From NCBI GenBank assembly GCA_017531315.1, contig JAFXLH010000081.1:1-34593 (forward strand): a stretch of 34,593 nucleotides of DNA, written 5' to 3'. The position numbers and the translations under genes are program-made. This document shows, piece after piece, positions 8,787-34,062 of this stretch. How positions within the stretch are numbered: the stretch's first letter is position 1; every line of letters begins with the position of its first letter. Below the pieces are notes generated by a model. That model ran no database searches, had not been told where the DNA came from, and saw only the letters and a list, made by a program, of their open reading frames with translations. Origin of the DNA: Bacillota bacterium (GTDB lineage: Bacteria > Bacillota > Dehalobacteriia > UBA4068).

Positions 8787-8841
8787 GAAAAGCAGTTACT
8801 TTGTCGCATCCGCCCGCATTTTGGCGAAAAGTTTTTGCCCC

Positions 8842-9519
8842 CTACTCTTCCACCTGCAGCGCCCGGCGCAGCTTGGCGATGGCCTTCTTTTCCAGCCGGG
8901 AGACATAGGAGCGCGAGATGCCGAGGATGCCTGCTACCTGGCGCTGGGTCTGCTGCTCGCGGCCGTCCAGGCCGTAGCGGCGGGTCAGCACCAGCTGCTC
9001 CGTGGCATCCAGCACCGAGAGCGCGCCGCGCATCTGCTGCCGCTGCTCATCTGCCGCCACCTGCTCTATCAGGTCGGTATCCTCTTCCGCCAGTATATCC
9101 AGCAGCGACATCTCGTTGCCCTCCTTATCCACGCCCACCGGGTCGAAGAGCGAGACCTCGCCCTTGGCATGGCGGGTGGCGCGGATGTGCATCAAGATCT
9201 CATTTTCGATGCAGCGGGCGGCATAGGTGGCCAGGCGCGCGCCCTTATCCGGCTGGAAGCTGTTGATGCCCTTGATCAGGCCGATGGTGCCGATGGAGAG
9301 CAGGTCGTCGCGGTCGATATTGGTGGATTCGAATTTCTTGGCCACATGCGCCACCAGCCGCAGGTTATGCTCGATGAGCTTGTTTTTGGCGCTGCCGCGC
9401 ACTTGGGCATCTGTATCGGCAAGGCGGGCGATGGTCTCTGCCTCTTCCGCGGCGGAAAGCAGCGGCGGGAAAATATTATTGTTCAGGTACGCGATAAAAC
9501 AGCTGCATTTGACGGCCAC
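8842..9519 (-). CDS. sigK: SigK-family RNA polymerase sigma factor
   Basis: Sigma-70 family factor closest in pattern to sporulation sigma-K. It begins AYLNNNIFPPLL after a very short N-terminus, then shows region 2 (NLRLVAHVAKKF, LLSIGTIGLIKGINSF, ATYAARCIENEILMHIR), the linker SLFDPVGVDKEGNE and region 4 with helix-turn-helix TQRQVAGILGISRSYVSRLE. The GTG at 9519 is chosen because GGAGG lies exactly 7 bases upstream, giving 225 residues; a TTG further up (9552) has no ribosome-binding site. From this start only 9 residues precede AYLNNN, so the membrane-bound pro-sequence of Bacillus pro-sigma-K appears absent. A small hairpin (6-bp arms) lies just before the ribosome-binding site. Whether the host sporulates cannot be told from the window. 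Confidence 0.85.
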   Translation of the reverse strand: MAVKCSCFIAYLNNNIFPPLLSAAEEAETIARLADTDAQVRGSAKNKLIEHNLRLVAHVAKKFESTNIDRDDLLSIGTIGLIKGINSFQPDKGARLATYAARCIENEILMHIRATRHAKGEVSLFDPVGVDKEGNEMSLLDILAEEDTDLIEQVAADEQRQQMRGALSVLDATEQLVLTRRYGLDGREQQTQRQVAGILGISRSYVSRLEKKAIAKLRRALQVEE

Positions 9520-9611
9520 GGCGCTACCTCCGCTAAGTGTTTTCCTTAGCAATCTATGCCGCCGCCTGCCACCGCGTACCTTGTCTTATGCCTGCTACAG
9601 CCCGGTTTATT

Positions 9612-10790
9612 TCACCAATTCTGCAAATCGCGGATATTTTGCAGCAGCGTTTCTGCGATCAGCCGCGCCTGCCACCGCGCCCCCTCCAGCCATACCACCG
9701 CGATCAGCCGCTCCTCGCCGATAAGCTGCGCGATATGCCAGCTGCCGCCTTCGCCCGCCGCGCTGCTCAGCAGCTGCGTATGCGCCTCGGTGAGCGGCGT
9801 GACCAGCGGCGGCTCGGGCAGCGGCGCATCCGGCTGCCACAGCCACTCGCCCTGCTCTCCCCGCACGCCCAGCGCCAGAACCGGTGTGATACGCCGCCCC
9901 GTGCCCGCCAGCAGCGCCAGCTGCGCCGCCTGCAGGGTGCTGATGCCCTCGCCTATGGCCACATCTGCGCTATACCCCACGGGCAGCGGCGGGAAGCTTA
10001 AATCCTGCCCGCAGGCCGCCTGCAGGTGGTCGATCAGCGGCTGCAGCTGCGCCTGCGGATGCGCTGCCAGCGCCGCTTCCGCATCGGCGGCCGCCCAGGC
10101 ACGCAGCGCGCCGTCTGCCGCATCCACCAGCACTATCGCCCCGCGCTGCCCGCCTAATGCCTGCTCCGCCAGCTGCTGATAGTCGGCATCCAGCGTCAGA
10201 CACAGGGTATTCCCTACCCCGCCCGCCACGCGGAACAGACCGTTGCCACAGTAGCTGCCACGCGCATCGATATTGGCGGCGATCTGCCCGCCGCCCCGCC
10301 CCTGCAGAAAGGAGTCATACTGCGCCTCCAGCCCGCCCGGCGGCTCGGCGCTGCCGATCAGCCACGCCGCATGACTCGTCTGCCGCTGCGGCAGCTCCAC
10401 AAGATGCACCGCCGCGATATCCGCCGCCATGAGGGCCGCCGCCTGCGCCTCGGTGAGGCCGCGCCGCAGCACCAGCATCTGCTGCCCCGCTACCTGCTCC
10501 GCCAGCTGCTCCTCGCCGATGCCCAGCAGCTGCGCCAGCTCTGCCGCATCCGCGCCCAGCTGCGCCGGGAACAGCAGCAGCGCCGGGGCAAGCGCATCGG
10601 TGAAGCTGCGCCCATAGCGGTCGACGATAGCGCCGCGGTCGTACTGGTAGTAATCTGCGGCGACGGTGCTCTGCGCCGCCATCGCCGTCTGCGCGCCGGG
10701 CTGCAGGGCGGCACGCGCCGCAGCCGCCGTGGGCAACAGCAGCAAAGCCACCAGCAGCCAGCCGACGATGCGGATACGCTTAATGCTCAT
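9612..10790 (-). CDS. Penicillin-binding-protein-like protein lacking catalytic motifs
   Basis: Membrane-anchored, 392 residues: one N-terminal transmembrane segment (about 8-26), then class B PBP landmarks. RGAIVDRYGRSF (52-63) resembles the PBP dimerisation motif. GGLEAQYDSFLQGRGGG (152-168) matches the conserved GLE-x-x-YD block. LTLDADYQQLAEQAL and GAIVLVD (198-223) match the entry into the transpeptidase domain, and VAIGEGISTLQAAQLA (277-292) matches the late 'IGQG..TPLQ' block. The catalytic SxxK, SxN and KTG motifs are not found, and the protein is much shorter than SpoVD/FtsI (about 550-700). It is therefore probably a non-enzymatic PBP scaffold; an eroding gene is the alternative. 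The frame is intact, with GGGAG 9 bases before the ATG. sigK follows 92 bases downstream, suggesting a shared transcript. Confidence 0.7.
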   Translation of the reverse strand: MSIKRIRIVGWLLVALLLLPTAAAARAALQPGAQTAMAAQSTVAADYYQYDRGAIVDRYGRSFTDALAPALLLFPAQLGADAAELAQLLGIGEEQLAEQVAGQQMLVLRRGLTEAQAAALMAADIAAVHLVELPQRQTSHAAWLIGSAEPPGGLEAQYDSFLQGRGGGQIAANIDARGSYCGNGLFRVAGGVGNTLCLTLDADYQQLAEQALGGQRGAIVLVDAADGALRAWAAADAEAALAAHPQAQLQPLIDHLQAACGQDLSFPPLPVGYSADVAIGEGISTLQAAQLALLAGTGRRITPVLALGVRGEQGEWLWQPDAPLPEPPLVTPLTEAHTQLLSSAAGEGGSWHIAQLIGEERLIAVVWLEGARWQARLIAETLLQNIRDLQNW

Positions 10791-10842
10791 ACAGGTATGC
10801 TCCCTTGAAGCTAATCTTTGTTGCTAGTATGCCCAATTGTAC

Positions 10843-10875
10843 AAAAAAACGGCGGGAGCAAGCCCCCGCCCTACA
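10843..10875 (-). terminator. GC-rich hairpin with T tract, TGTAGGG-type repeat
   Basis: On the minus strand a TGTAGGG lead runs into a GC-rich stem (10851-10859 with 10862-10870, one mismatch) followed by seven T residues (10843-10849). It looks like an intrinsic terminator built from a short dispersed repeat; its end motif is shared with the element at 10943-10994. It sits between the coaBC terminator and the PBP-like gene. Confidence 0.55.
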
Positions 10876-10899
10876 TTTAATCATCTCTTGATATGCAGC

Positions 10900-10928
10900 A
10901 AAAAAGCACCCTCATACGAGGGTGCTTT
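10900..10928 (-). terminator. Intrinsic terminator of the yicC-to-coaBC operon
   Basis: Perfect 11-bp stem (10903-10913 with 10918-10928, 4-base loop) followed on the minus strand by six T residues (10900-10905, partly in the stem). It lies about 80 bases past the coaBC stop. Confidence 0.85.
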
Positions 10929-10942
10929 GAATCAACACATAT

Positions 10943-10994
10943 TTGTAGGGGCGACCAGTGGTCGCCCGCGGGCGTGCAATGCACGCCCCTACAA
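10943..10994. repeat. Nested palindromic repeat element (52 bp)
   Basis: Perfect 11-bp outer inverted repeats (10943-10953 and 10984-10994; outer sequence TTGTAGGGGCG) enclose two further perfect palindromes: 8-bp arms at 10949-10956/10960-10967 and at 10970-10977/10981-10988. The TGTAGGGGCG ends and the double-hairpin layout resemble short intergenic repeats common in gut Bacillota. It sits between the coaBC stop and its terminator. Confidence 0.75.
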
Positions 10995-11005
10995 GGGATC
11001 GTCCG

Positions 11006-12205
11006 TTAAAAGCGCGGCAGTTCGCTGATCGCCTTAATTATCTGCCGTCCCGCCGCTCTCTTGCTCATCATCTCCCACTCCTCCGTCTTATCGGGAGAAA
11101 TGGCGGTGATGATATTGGTATCGCCGTCGAAGCCGGCGCCGGCCTGTGCCACGTTATTGGCGATGATCAGGTCCAGATTCTTTTCCACCAGCTTTTTGGT
11201 GGCGTAGGCGGCCAGATTTTGCGTCTCAGCGGCAAATCCGACCAGGATATGATCGCCCTTATCGGCGCCAAGGCCTTTCAGGATATCATTATTGGCGACC
11301 AGCTTGATCTCCATGCCGCCGCCCTTTTTGATCTTCTGCTCGGCTTGCTGTTCCGGGCGGTAATCCGCCACCGCCGCCGCCATCACTACGATGTCGTATT
11401 CGGCATAGGCCTCGCGCACCGCCGCTTCCATCTCGGCGGCGGAAGTGACGCGCACGCACTTGACGCCCGCCGGCACGGGCAGCGAGCAAGGGCCGCTGAC
11501 CAGCAGCACCTCGGCGCCCGCTTCAACCGCGGCAGCGGCTACGGCATAGCCCATCTTGCCGCTGGAACGGTTGCCGATAAAGCGCACGGGGTCGATGTAT
11601 TCGTAGGTAGGGCCGGCTGTTACCAGCACTCGGCGCCCGGAGAGCAACCGGCCTTCAGCAAAAAAATCCGTGATATACTGCTTGATATCCTCTACCTTCG
11701 CCAGGCGGCCTCTGCCTATCGCACCGCAGGCGAGTCTGCCTTCGCCCGGCTCGATGAAGCGGCAGCCGCGCGCAGAGAGAGTCTTGATATTGGCCTGAGT
11801 GGCGGGGTTGGCATACATATCGCAATGCATGGCCGGAGCGAAGATGATCGGCGCACTGGTTGCCAGCAGCGCCGCAGATACCAGCTCATCGGCAATGCCG
11901 CAGGCGGCCTTGGCAATGATATTGGCGGTGGCAGGCACTACTAAAAACAGATCGCAGGAAGCGATATCGATATGCGGCACATGGAAGTCGGCATCCAGCG
12001 AGTTGATATCGCAGGCCACCGGACGGCCGGACAGGGTCTTCATCGTCAGGGGCGTGATGAATTCGCAGGCAGACTTGGTCATGGCGACCGTTACTTCCGC
12101 TCCCTGCTGATTCAGCCAGCTGACGATATCCGCTGCTTTATATGCAGCAATACCGCCGGTGATACCGACGGTAATTTTTTTGCCGGAGAACAGTTTCTCA
12201 CTCAT
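11006..12205 (-). CDS. coaBC: Bifunctional CoaBC (phosphopantothenoylcysteine synthetase/decarboxylase)
   Basis: Performs two steps of coenzyme A synthesis: CoaB couples 4'-phosphopantothenate to cysteine (CTP-dependent), CoaC decarboxylates the product with FMN. In 399 residues, the CoaC flavoprotein domain comes first: GITGGIAAYKA, the catalytic His in HVPHIDIA, PAMHCDMYANPAT and the ACGAIGRGRLA flap. The CoaB domain begins VLVTAGPTYEYIDPVRFI and holds NRSSGKMG, AAVADYRP and a KIKK lysine motif. It overlaps rpoZ by 8 bases, with GAGG inside rpoZ, so the two are coupled. Last gene of the operon. Confidence 0.97.
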   Translation of the reverse strand: MSEKLFSGKKITVGITGGIAAYKAADIVSWLNQQGAEVTVAMTKSACEFITPLTMKTLSGRPVACDINSLDADFHVPHIDIASCDLFLVVPATANIIAKAACGIADELVSAALLATSAPIIFAPAMHCDMYANPATQANIKTLSARGCRFIEPGEGRLACGAIGRGRLAKVEDIKQYITDFFAEGRLLSGRRVLVTAGPTYEYIDPVRFIGNRSSGKMGYAVAAAAVEAGAEVLLVSGPCSLPVPAGVKCVRVTSAAEMEAAVREAYAEYDIVVMAAAVADYRPEQQAEQKIKKGGGMEIKLVANNDILKGLGADKGDHILVGFAAETQNLAAYATKKLVEKNLDLIIANNVAQAGAGFDGDTNIITAISPDKTEEWEMMSKRAAGRQIIKAISELPRF

Positions 12206-12482
12206 CGCAAGCGTCCTCTTCTACTTCTTCGGCTGCCTCGATTTCGGCAGCAACTTCTTCAGCAGCATCTTCTTCCACCACGGGAGCTTCCGCCTTATGC
12301 CAGGAAAGTTCGCCGGCGGCGATCTCTTTCAGGGCTTCGGAGACGGGGTTGACGCCCGGGGTGGCAGCCAGCGCGGGATTGGCGGTGATGGCCGCACGGG
12401 CACGCTTGGCCGCAACGATAACCAAGGTATACTTGGAATCGGCCTGCTGCATCAATTCATTGATAGACGGAGAGTTTAACAA
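12198..12482 (-). CDS. rpoZ: RNA polymerase omega subunit
   Basis: Omega helps fold and assemble the beta' subunit. The 94 residues contain the conserved N-terminal pattern PSINELMQQADSKYTLVIVAAKRARA and, after a short middle, a strikingly acidic tail (about 25 residues, mostly Glu, Asp and Ala) longer than in many homologues. Initiation is probably at TTG (12482), with a perfect GGAGG 8 bases upstream. It lies 27 bases after gmk; gmk-rpoZ-coaBC is a widely conserved order. Confidence 0.93.
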   Translation of the reverse strand: MLNSPSINELMQQADSKYTLVIVAAKRARAAITANPALAATPGVNPVSEALKEIAAGELSWHKAEAPVVEEDAAEEVAAEIEAAEEVEEDACDE

Positions 12483-12509
12483 AACTCTTACCTCCTTATA
12501 ACTGGTAGC

Positions 12510-14692: not shown

Positions 14693-14731
14693 AGTAGTAT
14701 CAGATCATGCCTTTCCGCAAAGGAGGAAGCT

Positions 14732-16465
14732 ATGGCTTTTGACTGCTACGCGCTGGCCGCCGCCTGCCGCGAGATCAATAAAACCTGCGCCGATACGCGC
14801 ATCAATAAAGTACATATGCCGGACCGCCACACCCTGCTGCTGCGCTTCCACGGGCGCGAGGGGCAGGGCAAGCTGCTGCTCTCGGCTCATCCGCAGCAGG
14901 GGCGCATCCAGCTGACCGAGCTTAGCTACGAGAACCTGCCCAGCGCACCGCCCTTTCTGATGGCGATGCGTAAATGGCTGGAGGGCGCAGCCATCCTCGG
15001 CATCCGCCAGACCCCCTATGAGCGCGTGGCGGAGCTGGAGCTGATTGTGCGCGACGGCATCGGTGACCGCAAGAAAGCGCGCCTCATCATCGAGATCATG
15101 GGCAAGCACAGCAATATCATCCTCGTCGACGCCAATGACCGCATCATCGACGGCATCCGCCGCTACGACAGCACGCTCTCCCAGTACCGCGAGGTGCTGC
15201 CCGGCTGCCGCTATCTCCCGCCGCCGCCGCTGGACAAGCTGCTGCCGCCCATCGAGCCGGCCGCCCTGCGCGAGCAGCTGATCTGCAGCGAGCCGCCGCT
15301 TGCCGCCACCGTGAAGGCGCGCATCGCCGGCCTGTCGCCGCTTGCCGCCAAGGAGATACTGGCCGGGCTGCCCGCCGAGCCGCGCCAGCTGGATGGCGAA
15401 GACTGGCTGCGCCTCTCCGCCGAGCTGGAGCGCTTCGCCCACATCTACGAGGGCAGCGAGGGCGCGCCCACCCTGCTGCAGCCGTCTACCGGCGCATCCG
15501 ATGTAGCGGCCTGGCTGCCCGCCGCCTGGGAAGCGCAGCCGCATGTGCAGTTCGATAGCATCTCTGCCGCGCTGGACGCCTGCTATGCGGTGAAGAATCG
15601 TGACGCCGCCTTTTCCGCGCGCCGCCGCAAGCTGGAAAAGCTGCTGGCGCAGCAGATAGGCCGCATGGAAAAGAAGATCGGCCTGCAGGAGCAGGACTTA
15701 GAAAAGTTCCTCGGCCGCGAAGACGATAAGCTGAAGGGCGATATGCTGGCCGCCTACCAGTACTACCTGAAGAAGGGCCTCGCCGATATCAGCCTGCCCA
15801 GCTTCGAAGACCCCAATGTGCTGGTAAGCATCGAGCTGGACCCCGGCCTCAACCCGCAGGAAAATATCACCCGCTATTACCGCCGCTACAGCAAGGCGAA
15901 AAAGGGCCGCGACCATATCCTGCCGCATCTCAATCAGAACCGCGAAGAGCTGGCTTATCTGCAGAGCATCTCCGCCGCGCTGGATATGGCAGAGGCAGAT
16001 GGCGACCTCAATGCGCTGGAGCAGGAGCTGCTGGCCGCCGGCTATATCAAGAAGCAGCCGGAGAAGCGCAAGGACGCCAAGAAGGATGACGAAGCGCTGC
16101 CGCCGCGCCGCGTGATTTCCGCCGACGGCTTCACCATCCTCATCGGCCGCAACAACCGCCAGAACGACCGCCTGACCCTGAAGGAGGCCGCCGCCACCGA
16201 CATCTGGCTGCACGCGCAGAAGATTCCCGGCAGCCACGTGATCATCCGCGCCGAAGGCCGCCCCGTGCCGGATAGCACCATCGCCGAGGCCGCCGCCTAT
16301 GCCGCCTGGTACAGCAAGGGCGGCAGCGCCGGCAAGACAGCCGTGGACTACACCACCGCCGATCAGGTGAAAAAGCCCGCCGGCGCCAAGCCGGGCATGG
16401 TCATCTACTTCCAGCAAAAGACGCTCTATGTAGAACCGCAAGAACCGAAAGAACCGCAGGAATAA
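14732..16465 (+). CDS. rqcH: Ribosome quality control factor RqcH (NFACT/FbpA family)
   Basis: Bacterial Rqc2/NEMF homologue. It binds stalled 50S-peptidyl-tRNA complexes and recruits Ala-tRNA to add C-terminal alanine tails for degradation; older annotation calls the family fibronectin-binding. The 577 residues contain the NFACT-N domain (MAFDCYALAAACREI, RINKVHMPDRHTLLLRF, IIEIMGKHSNIILVD), a helical middle with a coiled-coil arm (about 290-420) and the C-terminal NFACT-R domain (DGFTILIGRNNRQNDRLTLK, DIWLHAQKIPGSHVII). The tail ends in a short Glu-Pro-Gln/Lys repeat encoded by three 9-base units. The only plus-strand gene here, apparently monocistronic with its own promoter and terminator. 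Confidence 0.96.
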   Translation: MAFDCYALAAACREINKTCADTRINKVHMPDRHTLLLRFHGREGQGKLLLSAHPQQGRIQLTELSYENLPSAPPFLMAMRKWLEGAAILGIRQTPYERVAELELIVRDGIGDRKKARLIIEIMGKHSNIILVDANDRIIDGIRRYDSTLSQYREVLPGCRYLPPPPLDKLLPPIEPAALREQLICSEPPLAATVKARIAGLSPLAAKEILAGLPAEPRQLDGEDWLRLSAELERFAHIYEGSEGAPTLLQPSTGASDVAAWLPAAWEAQPHVQFDSISAALDACYAVKNRDAAFSARRRKLEKLLAQQIGRMEKKIGLQEQDLEKFLGREDDKLKGDMLAAYQYYLKKGLADISLPSFEDPNVLVSIELDPGLNPQENITRYYRRYSKAKKGRDHILPHLNQNREELAYLQSISAALDMAEADGDLNALEQELLAAGYIKKQPEKRKDAKKDDEALPPRRVISADGFTILIGRNNRQNDRLTLKEAAATDIWLHAQKIPGSHVIIRAEGRPVPDSTIAEAAAYAAWYSKGGSAGKTAVDYTTADQVKKPAGAKPGMVIYFQQKTLYVEPQEPKEPQE

Positions 16466-31552: not shown

Positions 31553-32692
31553 TCATTCACCCCTGTTGCCCAAGCGGGAAATATTCAGCAGCAGACCGAC
31601 GATACCCAGCGAAATGACCAGCGAGGTACCGCCGTAGCTGATAAAGGGCAGCGTAACGCCGGTGACCGGCAGCACGCCCGTAACAACGCCTAAGTTGACA
31701 AAGGCCTGGAAGCCGATGCTGGCCGTAAGCCCCATCGCCGCCAGCGAGCCGTACATATCCGGCGTGCGGATGGCGATGATCATGCCGCGCCAGATAAAGA
31801 GGGCGAAGAGGACGATGATCAGCATACCGCCCAGGAAGCCCATCTCTTCTGCCCAGACGGAGAAGATGAAGTCGGTATGGCGCGCCGGCAGGTAGTACCA
31901 CTTGGAGCCGCCGCTGCCCAATCCCACGCCGGTCAGCCCGCCGTTGCCCAGCGCCATCAGCGACTGGGTGATCTGCCAGGTGGCGTCGCTGGTATAGGCG
32001 GGGTTCCACGGGTCCAGCCAGGCCATGATGCGCTCCGAGCGGTAGCCCACGGTCATGATCGCCAGCGCGATCACACCGCCGCCGCCTAAGCCCACGCCCA
32101 CTACATACTTTAAGTCCAGCCCCGCCACAAACAGCATCAGCACCCCCGCCACCGCCACGACAAAGGCGGTAGAAAGGTCGCGCTGGCCTAAGATCATGCC
32201 GGACGCCAGCACGATAGCCGCCAGCGGGTAGCCGTAGTAGCGGCCCTTCTGGTAGCGGTAGGGGTAGAACTGGCTGAGGAAAAAGGCCACCGTGAGCGGG
32301 ATGAGGAATTTGGCAAATTCCGAGGGCTGGAAGCTGAACGAGCCTACCTCCAGCCAGCGGAAAGCGCCGCCGCTGTCATCCATAGCGCCGGCATAGCGCA
32401 GCACCAGCATCAGCGTAAAGAGGCAGATCATGCAGACAAAGCCGGGCAGAGTCAGCTTCTTGATCCATTCATAGGGGAAATTGGCGGCGATAGCCATGCC
32501 GATGAAGCCGAGCAGCGCCGCAAAAGCCTGCTTCTTCAGGAAGTAGAAAGTATCGTTATAGGGATAGTAAGAGGCAAAGTACTGGCTGGCAGAAAAGACC
32601 ATAATGATACCCAGGCTGGTCAGCGCCAGGGTGATGCACAGCAGCCACCAGTCAATGCCGCCCCTATTCTTTTCTGCCGGTAATTTGTTCAA
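31553..32692 (-). CDS. ftsW: Septal peptidoglycan polymerase FtsW (SEDS family)
   Basis: SEDS glycosyltransferase that polymerises lipid II at the septum with a class B PBP. The 379 residues have about ten hydrophobic segments. SEDS marks include FRWLEVGSFSFQPSEFAKF, QRDLSTAFVVAVAG, the loop SLMALGNGGLTGVGLGSG, and the end TLPFISYGGTSLV. The start is probably TTG (32692), with GGAG 8 bases upstream; the frame stays open further into murD without a ribosome-binding site. It is placed between murD and murG; SpoVE would be an alternative label. Confidence 0.94.
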   Translation of the reverse strand: MNKLPAEKNRGGIDWWLLCITLALTSLGIIMVFSASQYFASYYPYNDTFYFLKKQAFAALLGFIGMAIAANFPYEWIKKLTLPGFVCMICLFTLMLVLRYAGAMDDSGGAFRWLEVGSFSFQPSEFAKFLIPLTVAFFLSQFYPYRYQKGRYYGYPLAAIVLASGMILGQRDLSTAFVVAVAGVLMLFVAGLDLKYVVGVGLGGGGVIALAIMTVGYRSERIMAWLDPWNPAYTSDATWQITQSLMALGNGGLTGVGLGSGGSKWYYLPARHTDFIFSVWAEEMGFLGGMLIIVLFALFIWRGMIIAIRTPDMYGSLAAMGLTASIGFQAFVNLGVVTGVLPVTGVTLPFISYGGTSLVISLGIVGLLLNISRLGNRGE

Positions 32693-32709
32693 TGCCAATT
32701 CTCCTATAT

Positions 32710-34062
32710 CTATTCTTCGGTCACGATCTGCTTGAAGCGCTCGCCGCGCACCATGTAGTTGGGGAAGGCGTCCCAGCTGGCACAGGCGGGAGAAAAGAGC
32801 AGCGTATCGCCTTCGCGGCACTCGGCCATCGCCATCCGCACCGCCGTATCAAAATCGGCCGCCAGCGCATAGCTGCCATAGCCTGCCGCATCGGCCGCCG
32901 CCTTTATCGCAGGCGCGGTGGCGCCGGTGATGATGCAGTAACGCACCTTCTCCTTCACCAGCTGCAGCAGCGGGTGGAAGTCGCTGCCTTTGTCATAGCC
33001 GCCCAGTATCATCACCAGCGGCGAAGCGAAGGCTTCGATGGCCTTGGTGGTGGAATCGGGGTTGGTGCCCTTGGAATCGTTGTAATAATCCACGCCGTTT
33101 TTGCGGCAGACGAATTCGAGACGATGCTCCACGCCGCGGAAATCGCGCAGTGTCGCCGCGATCTGTTCCGCGCTGATGCCCTGCGCCAGCGCCGCGGCAG
33201 CCGCCGCCATGGCGTTCTGCCAGTTGTGGCGACCCTTGATATATATTTCCTCTGCGCGGATAAGATGCGTGTATTCCGCGCCGCGCTTGATGCGGATATC
33301 GCCGTCACACAGCTCCAGCCCATCCTGATCCGCCGCCAGCGGAGCCAGCGAGAACCACAGCTTGCGCGCCGGGGTGAGCGCCGCGGCACGGATGCACCAC
33401 TCGTCATCCGCATTCAGCACCGCCGTATCCGCCGCCGTCTGATGGGCGAAAATTTTCGCCTTGGCGGCGAAGTACCCCTCGATATCGCCGTGGCGGTCGA
33501 GGTGGTCGGGGGTGAGGTTCAAAAAGAGCGCGGTATTGATATGCAGCTCGCGGCTGTCTTCCAGCTGAAAGCTCGAAAGCTCCGCCACCACCGAGCCGCC
33601 GAAGCCGCCCATGCGGCCCACCAGCGGCGCACCGATATTGCCGCCCAGCAGCGTAGCGCGCCCCGCCTGCCGCAGCATCAGCTCCAGCAGCGTGGTCGTG
33701 GTAGTCTTGCCATTGGTGCCGGTGATGCCGATAAAGCGCGGCGCGGCATCTGCGGTAAGATATGCCAGCTCTATCTCGCCGATGATCGGCGTTTTGGCTT
33801 CCGCCAGCTGCACCAAGAGCGGATGCGTGGGCGGGATGCCGGGGCTTTTCAGGCACAGATCGAAGGCGCCGGCGGGAATTTGCCCGCCTAAGCACATTTC
33901 TACGCCCAGAGCGGCCAGTTCTGCCGCTGCGGCGCCGAATTTTTCCGCGCTGCGGTCGTCAAACAGGGTCACCTTGCTCCCCTGCCCCACTAAATAGCGG
34001 CAGACGGCCTGCCCGGAAAGGCCGCCGCCGACCACGATAATATTTTTACCTGCCAAATCCAC
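32710..34062 (-). CDS. murD: UDP-N-acetylmuramoyl-L-alanine-D-glutamate ligase MurD
   Basis: ATP-dependent ligase adding D-glutamate to UDP-MurNAc-Ala. Features are VVGGGLSGQAV at the N-terminus, the P-loop GTNGKTT (115-121), ELSSFQLE, NLTPDHLDRHG, GVEHRLEFV and NDSKGTNPDST, which orders the D-Glu site. Two GTG starts are possible. The one at 34062 (AGAAGG about 10 bases upstream) gives 450 residues beginning like most MurD. The one at 34089 overlaps the mraY stop by 7 bases, but no ribosome-binding site is seen. No base composition change relative to neighbours. Confidence 0.96.
   Translation of the reverse strand: MDLAGKNIIVVGGGLSGQAVCRYLVGQGSKVTLFDDRSAEKFGAAAAELAALGVEMCLGGQIPAGAFDLCLKSPGIPPTHPLLVQLAEAKTPIIGEIELAYLTADAAPRFIGITGTNGKTTTTTLLELMLRQAGRATLLGGNIGAPLVGRMGGFGGSVVAELSSFQLEDSRELHINTALFLNLTPDHLDRHGDIEGYFAAKAKIFAHQTAADTAVLNADDEWCIRAAALTPARKLWFSLAPLAADQDGLELCDGDIRIKRGAEYTHLIRAEEIYIKGRHNWQNAMAAAAAALAQGISAEQIAATLRDFRGVEHRLEFVCRKNGVDYYNDSKGTNPDSTTKAIEAFASPLVMILGGYDKGSDFHPLLQLVKEKVRYCIITGATAPAIKAAADAAGYGSYALAADFDTAVRMAMAECREGDTLLFSPACASWDAFPNYMVRGERFKQIVTEE

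Follow-up and report, generated by a model that had tools for sequence, protein, structure and literature searches.

A sigK-linked class B penicillin-binding protein that has lost its transpeptidase core and kept its pedestal

What remains of a penicillin-binding protein when its catalytic core is gone, and is what remains still at work? This question is raised by a frame next to a sigK-type gene in a 34,593-nucleotide stretch of a Bacillota genome (contig JAFXLH010000081.1), referred to below as the window. The frame is open across 392 codons, as an earlier note on this DNA had stated, and its product resembles the class B penicillin-binding proteins (bPBPs). The features of the locus are collected in Table 1. 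The protein contains a single lysine (0.3% of its residues) and 19% alanine; lysine makes up 2.2 to 7.9% of 13 other proteins encoded in the window. Its anchor ends in PTAAAARA, so that a cleavable signal peptide, with cleavage and release of the protein, is also possible. Elsewhere in the window, a 279-residue protein encoded at positions 14,705 to 15,544 lies beside yicC, as it does in seven of the 20 stretches fetched from relatives; it has no match in NCBIfam (E up to 0.01) or Pfam (E up to 1e-5).

Table 1. Positions of the bPBP gene, its parts and its neighbours in the window.
Feature	Positions	Strand	Length	Remarks
Class B PBP (bPBP), PBP3-type, without transpeptidase core	9,612–10,790	−	392 aa	
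AAGGGAG, likely ribosome-binding site	10,800–10,806	−		9 nt before the ATG; read from sequence
N-terminal hydrophobic anchor	10,710–10,790	−	residues 1–27	read from sequence
Pedestal (dimerisation) domain and first transpeptidase strands	10,095–10,658	−	residues 45–232	conserved
Segment not itself alignable	9,978–10,094	−	residues 233–271 (39 residues)	
Diverged transpeptidase remnant	9,726–9,977	−	residues 272–355	homology weak but real
sigK-type sporulation sigma factor gene	8,842–9,552	−		intact; next gene downstream, same strand
coaBC	11,006–12,205	−		upstream neighbour
Palindromic repeat, begins TTGTAGGGGCGACC	10,943–10,994		26-nt arms	81% complementary; occupies the gap that metK fills in relatives
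FtsW/SpoVE-type SEDS polymerase gene	31,553–32,821	−		dcw cluster; putative partner

The PBP_dimer domain (Pfam PF03717) was found in the window protein with an E-value of 2.5e-4 and 22 bits, slightly below the cut-off of 24.4, and the genome-wide scan with PF03717 does not list this place. Pfam gave no match to the transpeptidase domain (PF00905) or to PASTA in the protein. A pattern scan of the whole protein found no SxxK, SxN or [KRH][TS]G (KTG) anywhere, which bears out the earlier report of their absence and leaves no cryptic SxxK. The active-site zinc tetrad (Cys, Cys, His and the Cys of SCN), whose pattern occurs in 20 of 20 aligned orthologues, is absent as well. The orthologues carry the SxxK helix, the zinc ligands and SxN where the window protein has residues 233 to 271. 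With a profile built from the 20 orthologues, residues 1 to 235 scored 137.5 bits, in agreement with the claim that the anchor and a dimerisation-type domain are kept, and residues 272 to 355 scored 10.4 bits. The segment from 232 to 392 taken alone reached 13.6 bits, the best of 1000 shuffles reaching 2.1.

The loss amounts to about 150 residues relative to the orthologues (stop-to-stop frames of 542 to 651 aa, with one over-long frame of 789) and to about 336 relative to the 728-aa frame of the genome's own SpoVD-type bPBP; the earlier note had put it at about 150 to 300 residues relative to SpoVD/FtsI. A six-frame profile search of positions 8,801 to 12,500 gave a match in this frame alone and no hidden transpeptidase elsewhere. 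A frameshifted gene with its motifs in another frame is thus ruled out, and the view that this is no fresh frameshifted pseudogene stands. A single-sequence structure prediction gave a useless model (mean pLDDT 39, pTM 0.27). The catalytic core has been lost in frame, and the anchor, the pedestal and the reading frame have been kept.

We searched 61 genomes, the window's own and 60 relatives, and the window protein was matched in 52 of them. Stretches were fetched from 20 of the 51 other matched genomes, and 20 proteins were aligned. All 20 are full-length bPBPs with SxxK (as P-A-S-x-x-K), SxN and KTG in register; motifs were judged by alignment register, as the KTG pattern alone can also match the pedestal. 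Both the transpeptidase and the pedestal domain exceed the Pfam cut-offs in the five orthologues scanned (5/5). The gene order in relatives is coaBC-metK-PBP-sigK, and the window gene is found at the same locus. coaBC and sigK were each present in 11 of the 20 fetched stretches, several of which stop at contig ends. metK is present in the stretches of ten of the 11 genomes with coaBC; it lies between coaBC and the PBP gene in L027, L029, L033 and L036, and in L039 with one extra gene between. Judged by sequence match and gene order, the window gene is the orthologue of the full-length bPBP at this locus. The SigK-type neighbour named in the earlier note is real, with 292 bits to the SigK subfamily model NF004471 (cut-off 252) and 286 bits, just below the cut-off of 298.65, to TIGR02846.

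Within the family, 13 of the 19 other genomes match the window protein (E up to 0.001), one of them (G009) probably through its SpoVD-type gene and another (G019) through a contig-end fragment; three of the six family genomes without a match are less than 85% complete. In other genomes of the family and order, identity to the window protein over the matched part does not exceed 43%. The short form did not turn up in any of the relatives searched; the genus of the window is represented by one genome. Two other short copies, in G019 (216 aa) and G058 (322 aa), were rejected, their frames lying at contig ends.

The sigK gene itself is split in two relatives. In G022 (L074:6638-13167, contig C1), the N-terminal half is on the + strand and the C-terminal half about 6 kb off on the opposite strand; between them, a 594-aa frame resembling a serine recombinase and transporter-like genes were read from the sequence. 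With the halves on opposite strands, rebuilding sigK would need an inversion rather than a skin-type excision, and an assembly error is possible. In G011 (L073:6670-9803, contig C4), the two parts of sigK share one orientation and lie about 2.3 kb apart, separated by a recombinase-like frame of 567 aa; this may be a minimal skin-like element.

The best match among solved structures was 7RD0 for all three orthologues tested, with small margins over the SpoVD structure 7RCZ (155 versus 151, 141 versus 137 and 140 versus 133 bits); for the window protein alone, 7RD0 is not listed at E up to 0.01. 7RD0 is Clostridioides difficile PBP3, described as a catalytic protein with an active-site zinc that is inhibited by beta-lactams (PMC9334274). 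PBP3 is given as the product of cd630_12290 (CD1229) (PMC12713402); the sigma-F regulon includes CD1229, and sigK is CD1230 (PMC3789822). By these locus numbers, the PBP3-sigK neighbourhood is shared with C. difficile. The assignment of the window gene to the PBP3 type is based on the 7RD0 match, the sigK neighbourhood, the separate SpoVD-type bPBP in the same genome and the other bPBP found near mreB in relatives. NCBIfam names neither the window gene nor five scanned orthologues above a cut-off; the best match of the window protein is pbp2_mrdA, far below threshold (52.9 versus 455 bits). A degenerate elongasome PBP2 was considered and rejected, as a separate bPBP with a frame of 621 to 643 aa lies near mreB in five relatives (G005 C69, G007 C14, G008 C100, G011 C9, G016 C20). 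Upstream of the window gene, a -10-like GGGCATACT lies 44 nt away without a -35, and a full sigma-F promoter match was found in none of 21 upstream regions. A non-enzymatic bPBP beside SigK, linked to sporulation, as the earlier note had proposed, is upheld by the motif loss and by the PBP3-type orthologues, among whose stretches the sigK neighbour recurs. The new spore-coat component suggested there is not, and what emerges instead is a protein derived from a sigK-linked bPBP already known, which has been studied for its part in septal peptidoglycan synthesis.

The gene may nevertheless be a decaying relic, a real possibility that we think somewhat improbable. PBP3 would no longer be needed, its core would have been lost, and the gene would be drifting to full loss as in genus g4 of the same family, the frame staying open by luck and recency in a GC-rich genome. 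Genus g4 lends weight to this explanation: in G015, 515 nt and no PBP gene separate the end of metK from sigK, and G003, which belongs to that genus too, gave no match either. The locus has also been disturbed: metK has departed from between coaBC and the PBP gene, two metK pieces lie on other contigs, and the palindromic repeat, found at a single place in the window, stands in its place. Against decay, the ribosome-binding-like site is still in position before the start codon.

The sporulation and wall-synthesis setting bears on the relic as well. SpoIVA, the SigK of the window and a second SigE/SigK-like sigma factor were found in the genome, along with two transpeptidase-domain proteins above cut-off, a SpoVD-type bPBP and a class A-like PBP. 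The SpoVD-type bPBP (contig C158) has PASTA and the catalytic motifs, and scores 416 bits to 7RCZ and 687.3 to NCBIfam spoVD (cut-off 688). The class A-like PBP is cut by a contig end and was named from its sequence. Since SpoIVA, the SpoVD-type bPBP and both sigma factors are present, a lost sporulation pathway is not indicated. One SEDS protein was found in the genome, the FtsW/SpoVE-type polymerase of the window, and no MreB, two matches looking like DnaK-family proteins when read from the sequence; such single absences are uncertain in an assembly that is 89.8% complete. A reduced machinery of this kind would suit a PBP that is no longer needed, and no MreB-strength match was found in 13 of the 20 family genomes, the calls in other genomes resting on score and frame length. 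However, in six relatives where no MreB was found (G001, G002, G006, G013, G014, G017), the copy is still full-length and has every motif. Losing the elongation machinery is thus not by itself enough to make the gene useless, and erosion coupled to MreB loss alone was rejected. In seven relatives that gave no MreB-strength match, a divergent SEDS domain occurs in an unusually long frame (598 to 787 aa) near a short bPBP with a frame of 446 to 496 aa (G001:C58, G002:C59, G003:C39, G010:C95, G015:C4, G018:C76, G019:C4); this pair was not found in the window's genome.

The pattern of constraint is domain-specific, which a relic would not readily show. Among columns at least 80% identical in the orthologues, the window protein keeps 35 of 44 in the pedestal (80%; orthologues 82 to 98%) and 15 of 33 in the remnant (45%; orthologues 71 to 100%), where the alignment is partly insecure. 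Leave-one-out profile scores are 128.5 bits for the pedestal (orthologues 150 to 268) and 14.0 bits for the remnant (orthologues 81 to 123). The pedestal values are both lower than those of every orthologue. Branch lengths were compared in 13 taxa on a tree fixed from six neighbouring genes in 17 genomes, with sigK missing or partial in some, the mismatched sigK of G010 dropped and several inner nodes supported at 43 to 64. On the window branch, length rises from 0.42 (control genes) through 1.06 (pedestal) to 2.3 (remnant). Its pedestal-to-control ratio of 2.5 exceeds that of every other taxon compared (0.67 to 2.10), and its remnant-to-control ratio is 5.5 (others 0.66 to 3.12). Both parts have thus evolved faster, the remnant most, as expected if the whole gene were decaying. 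The remnant-to-pedestal ratio is 2.18 for the window and 2.74 for G001, the latter on short branches.

Base composition points in both directions. GC at third codon positions stays at 0.83 to 0.85 from the pedestal to the end of the frame, versus 0.51 to 0.58 in three neighbouring intergenic gaps, and a relic would not be expected to maintain it. At codon positions 1 and 2, GC is raised above that of the 12 other window genes measured, which relaxed constraint would produce. The absence of any stop or frameshift over the 392 codons was set against a simulation of neutral drift in the last 121 or 160 codons (400 runs per setting, indels at 5% of substitutions). At drift to 60% amino-acid identity, the frame stayed open in 3 to 40% of runs when stops alone were counted; the share that also escaped any frameshift was no more than 2.5% with 121 codons and 0.25% with 160 codons (residues 233 to 392). 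At drift to 90% identity, 17 to 37% of runs remained open and unshifted. The simulation speaks against a relic to the extent that the assumed indel rate holds and the loss is not recent; it is suggestive, and not proof, of a frame kept by translation through most of the divergence.

A second explanation is that the tail has taken on a new activity, as a remodelled enzyme or a binding domain rather than a dead transpeptidase. Residues 316 to 392, which do not align securely with the transpeptidase profile, would leave room for this: the remnant alignment is insecure past about residue 316, profile alignments of the far tail are uninformative, residues 300 to 392 alone score -0.7 bits to the orthologue profile, and the place of KTG is not securely alignable. 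Residues 272 to 315 still match the transpeptidase profile, however, one orthologue matches the window protein to residue 355 (E 7e-4), and no family match to the tail was found in Pfam (E up to 1) or NCBIfam (E up to 0.01), which together make a recruited tail quite unlikely. Less probable still is a misjoin within the contig that produced a shortened gene, for although the assembly is in 193 contigs and incomplete, this would explain neither a homologous in-frame remnant more diverged than the pedestal nor why lysine is almost missing throughout the protein.

We therefore favour, over a decaying relic, a working non-catalytic PBP3-type protein that helps septal peptidoglycan synthesis, and give this reading about an even chance of being right. 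The gene is the orthologue of a sigK-linked, sporulation-induced class B PBP, the PBP3 of C. difficile. This lineage has lost the SxxK helix together with the zinc site, SxN and KTG, and has retained the frame, the membrane anchor and the pedestal. The product would be held in the membrane of the (polar) septum, where its pedestal might touch a SEDS-bPBP pair (FtsW/SpoVE with SpoVD) or a class A PBP, and SpoVD or the class A PBP would perform the cross-linking.

Several lines of evidence support such a helper: the locus shared with full-length orthologues that are catalytic by motif in 20 of 20 cases and match 7RD0 best; a pedestal better conserved than the remnant, both by columns and by leave-one-out scores; the open frame, the third-position GC kept to its end and the drift simulation; and the presence of a SpoVD-type bPBP, a class A-like PBP and FtsW in the genome. 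Studies of C. difficile add to these, as they describe a PBP3 with its own serine mutated that promotes asymmetric division of SpoVD catalytic mutants, as well as uncontrolled septation of PBP1 transpeptidase mutants (PMC12713402, PMC12539705). The mechanism of this non-catalytic effect on the septum is called unclear by their authors (PMC12713402, PMC12539705). The pedestals of bPBPs are believed to be activators of SEDS polymerases (PMC8078798). The window protein retains the part that a non-catalytic septum role might need. The helper is weakened by its occurrence in one genome only, by a pedestal branch that, relative to control genes, is the longest of 13 taxa, by the GC content at codon positions 1 and 2, by genus g4 without the gene, by the lack of a sigma-F promoter match and by the useless structure model. 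In addition, the serine mutants keep their transpeptidase domain, so that a role of the pedestal alone goes beyond the C. difficile evidence. The more specific proposal, that a natural bPBP has shed its transpeptidase core and works via anchor and pedestal only, the non-catalytic septum-regulating function of PBP3 being what selection keeps in this spore-forming bacterium, is put forward tentatively, as falling just short of an even chance.

A PBP3-type, sigK-linked bPBP is known; a natural copy without the catalytic core, its pedestal kept, appears to be new. A literature search on inactive or truncated bPBPs, mostly at the level of titles and abstracts, returned no naturally core-less bPBP with a kept pedestal. 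Such a natural version suggests which part of PBP3 could suffice, and would offer a minimal construct for finding partners. If the gene is instead a relic, the loss of a PBP3-type gene has been caught half-way, in a family where most genomes show no MreB.

The window protein can be compared with four known systems. With PBP2 (MrdA) of the elongasome it shares its best, though far sub-threshold, NCBIfam match, whereas MreB-bearing relatives have a separate bPBP within about 3 kb of mreB that is not the sigK-linked gene. With the SpoVD/FtsI-type bPBP of the dcw cluster it has in common the pedestal and the membrane anchor; the separate SpoVD-type gene of its own genome has catalytic motifs and PASTA, and the window protein lacks both. 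Bacillus subtilis PBP 2B is reported to show that a bPBP can serve division without catalysis (PMC5656894), but that work concerned a point mutant made in the laboratory, whose domain was still present, whereas the core of the window protein is naturally gone. C. difficile PBP3 is likewise a bPBP without PASTA that adjoins sigK, by locus number, and whose catalysis is dispensable for its septation effect in mutants. It differs in being catalytic and zinc-binding, whereas the window protein has none of the motifs.
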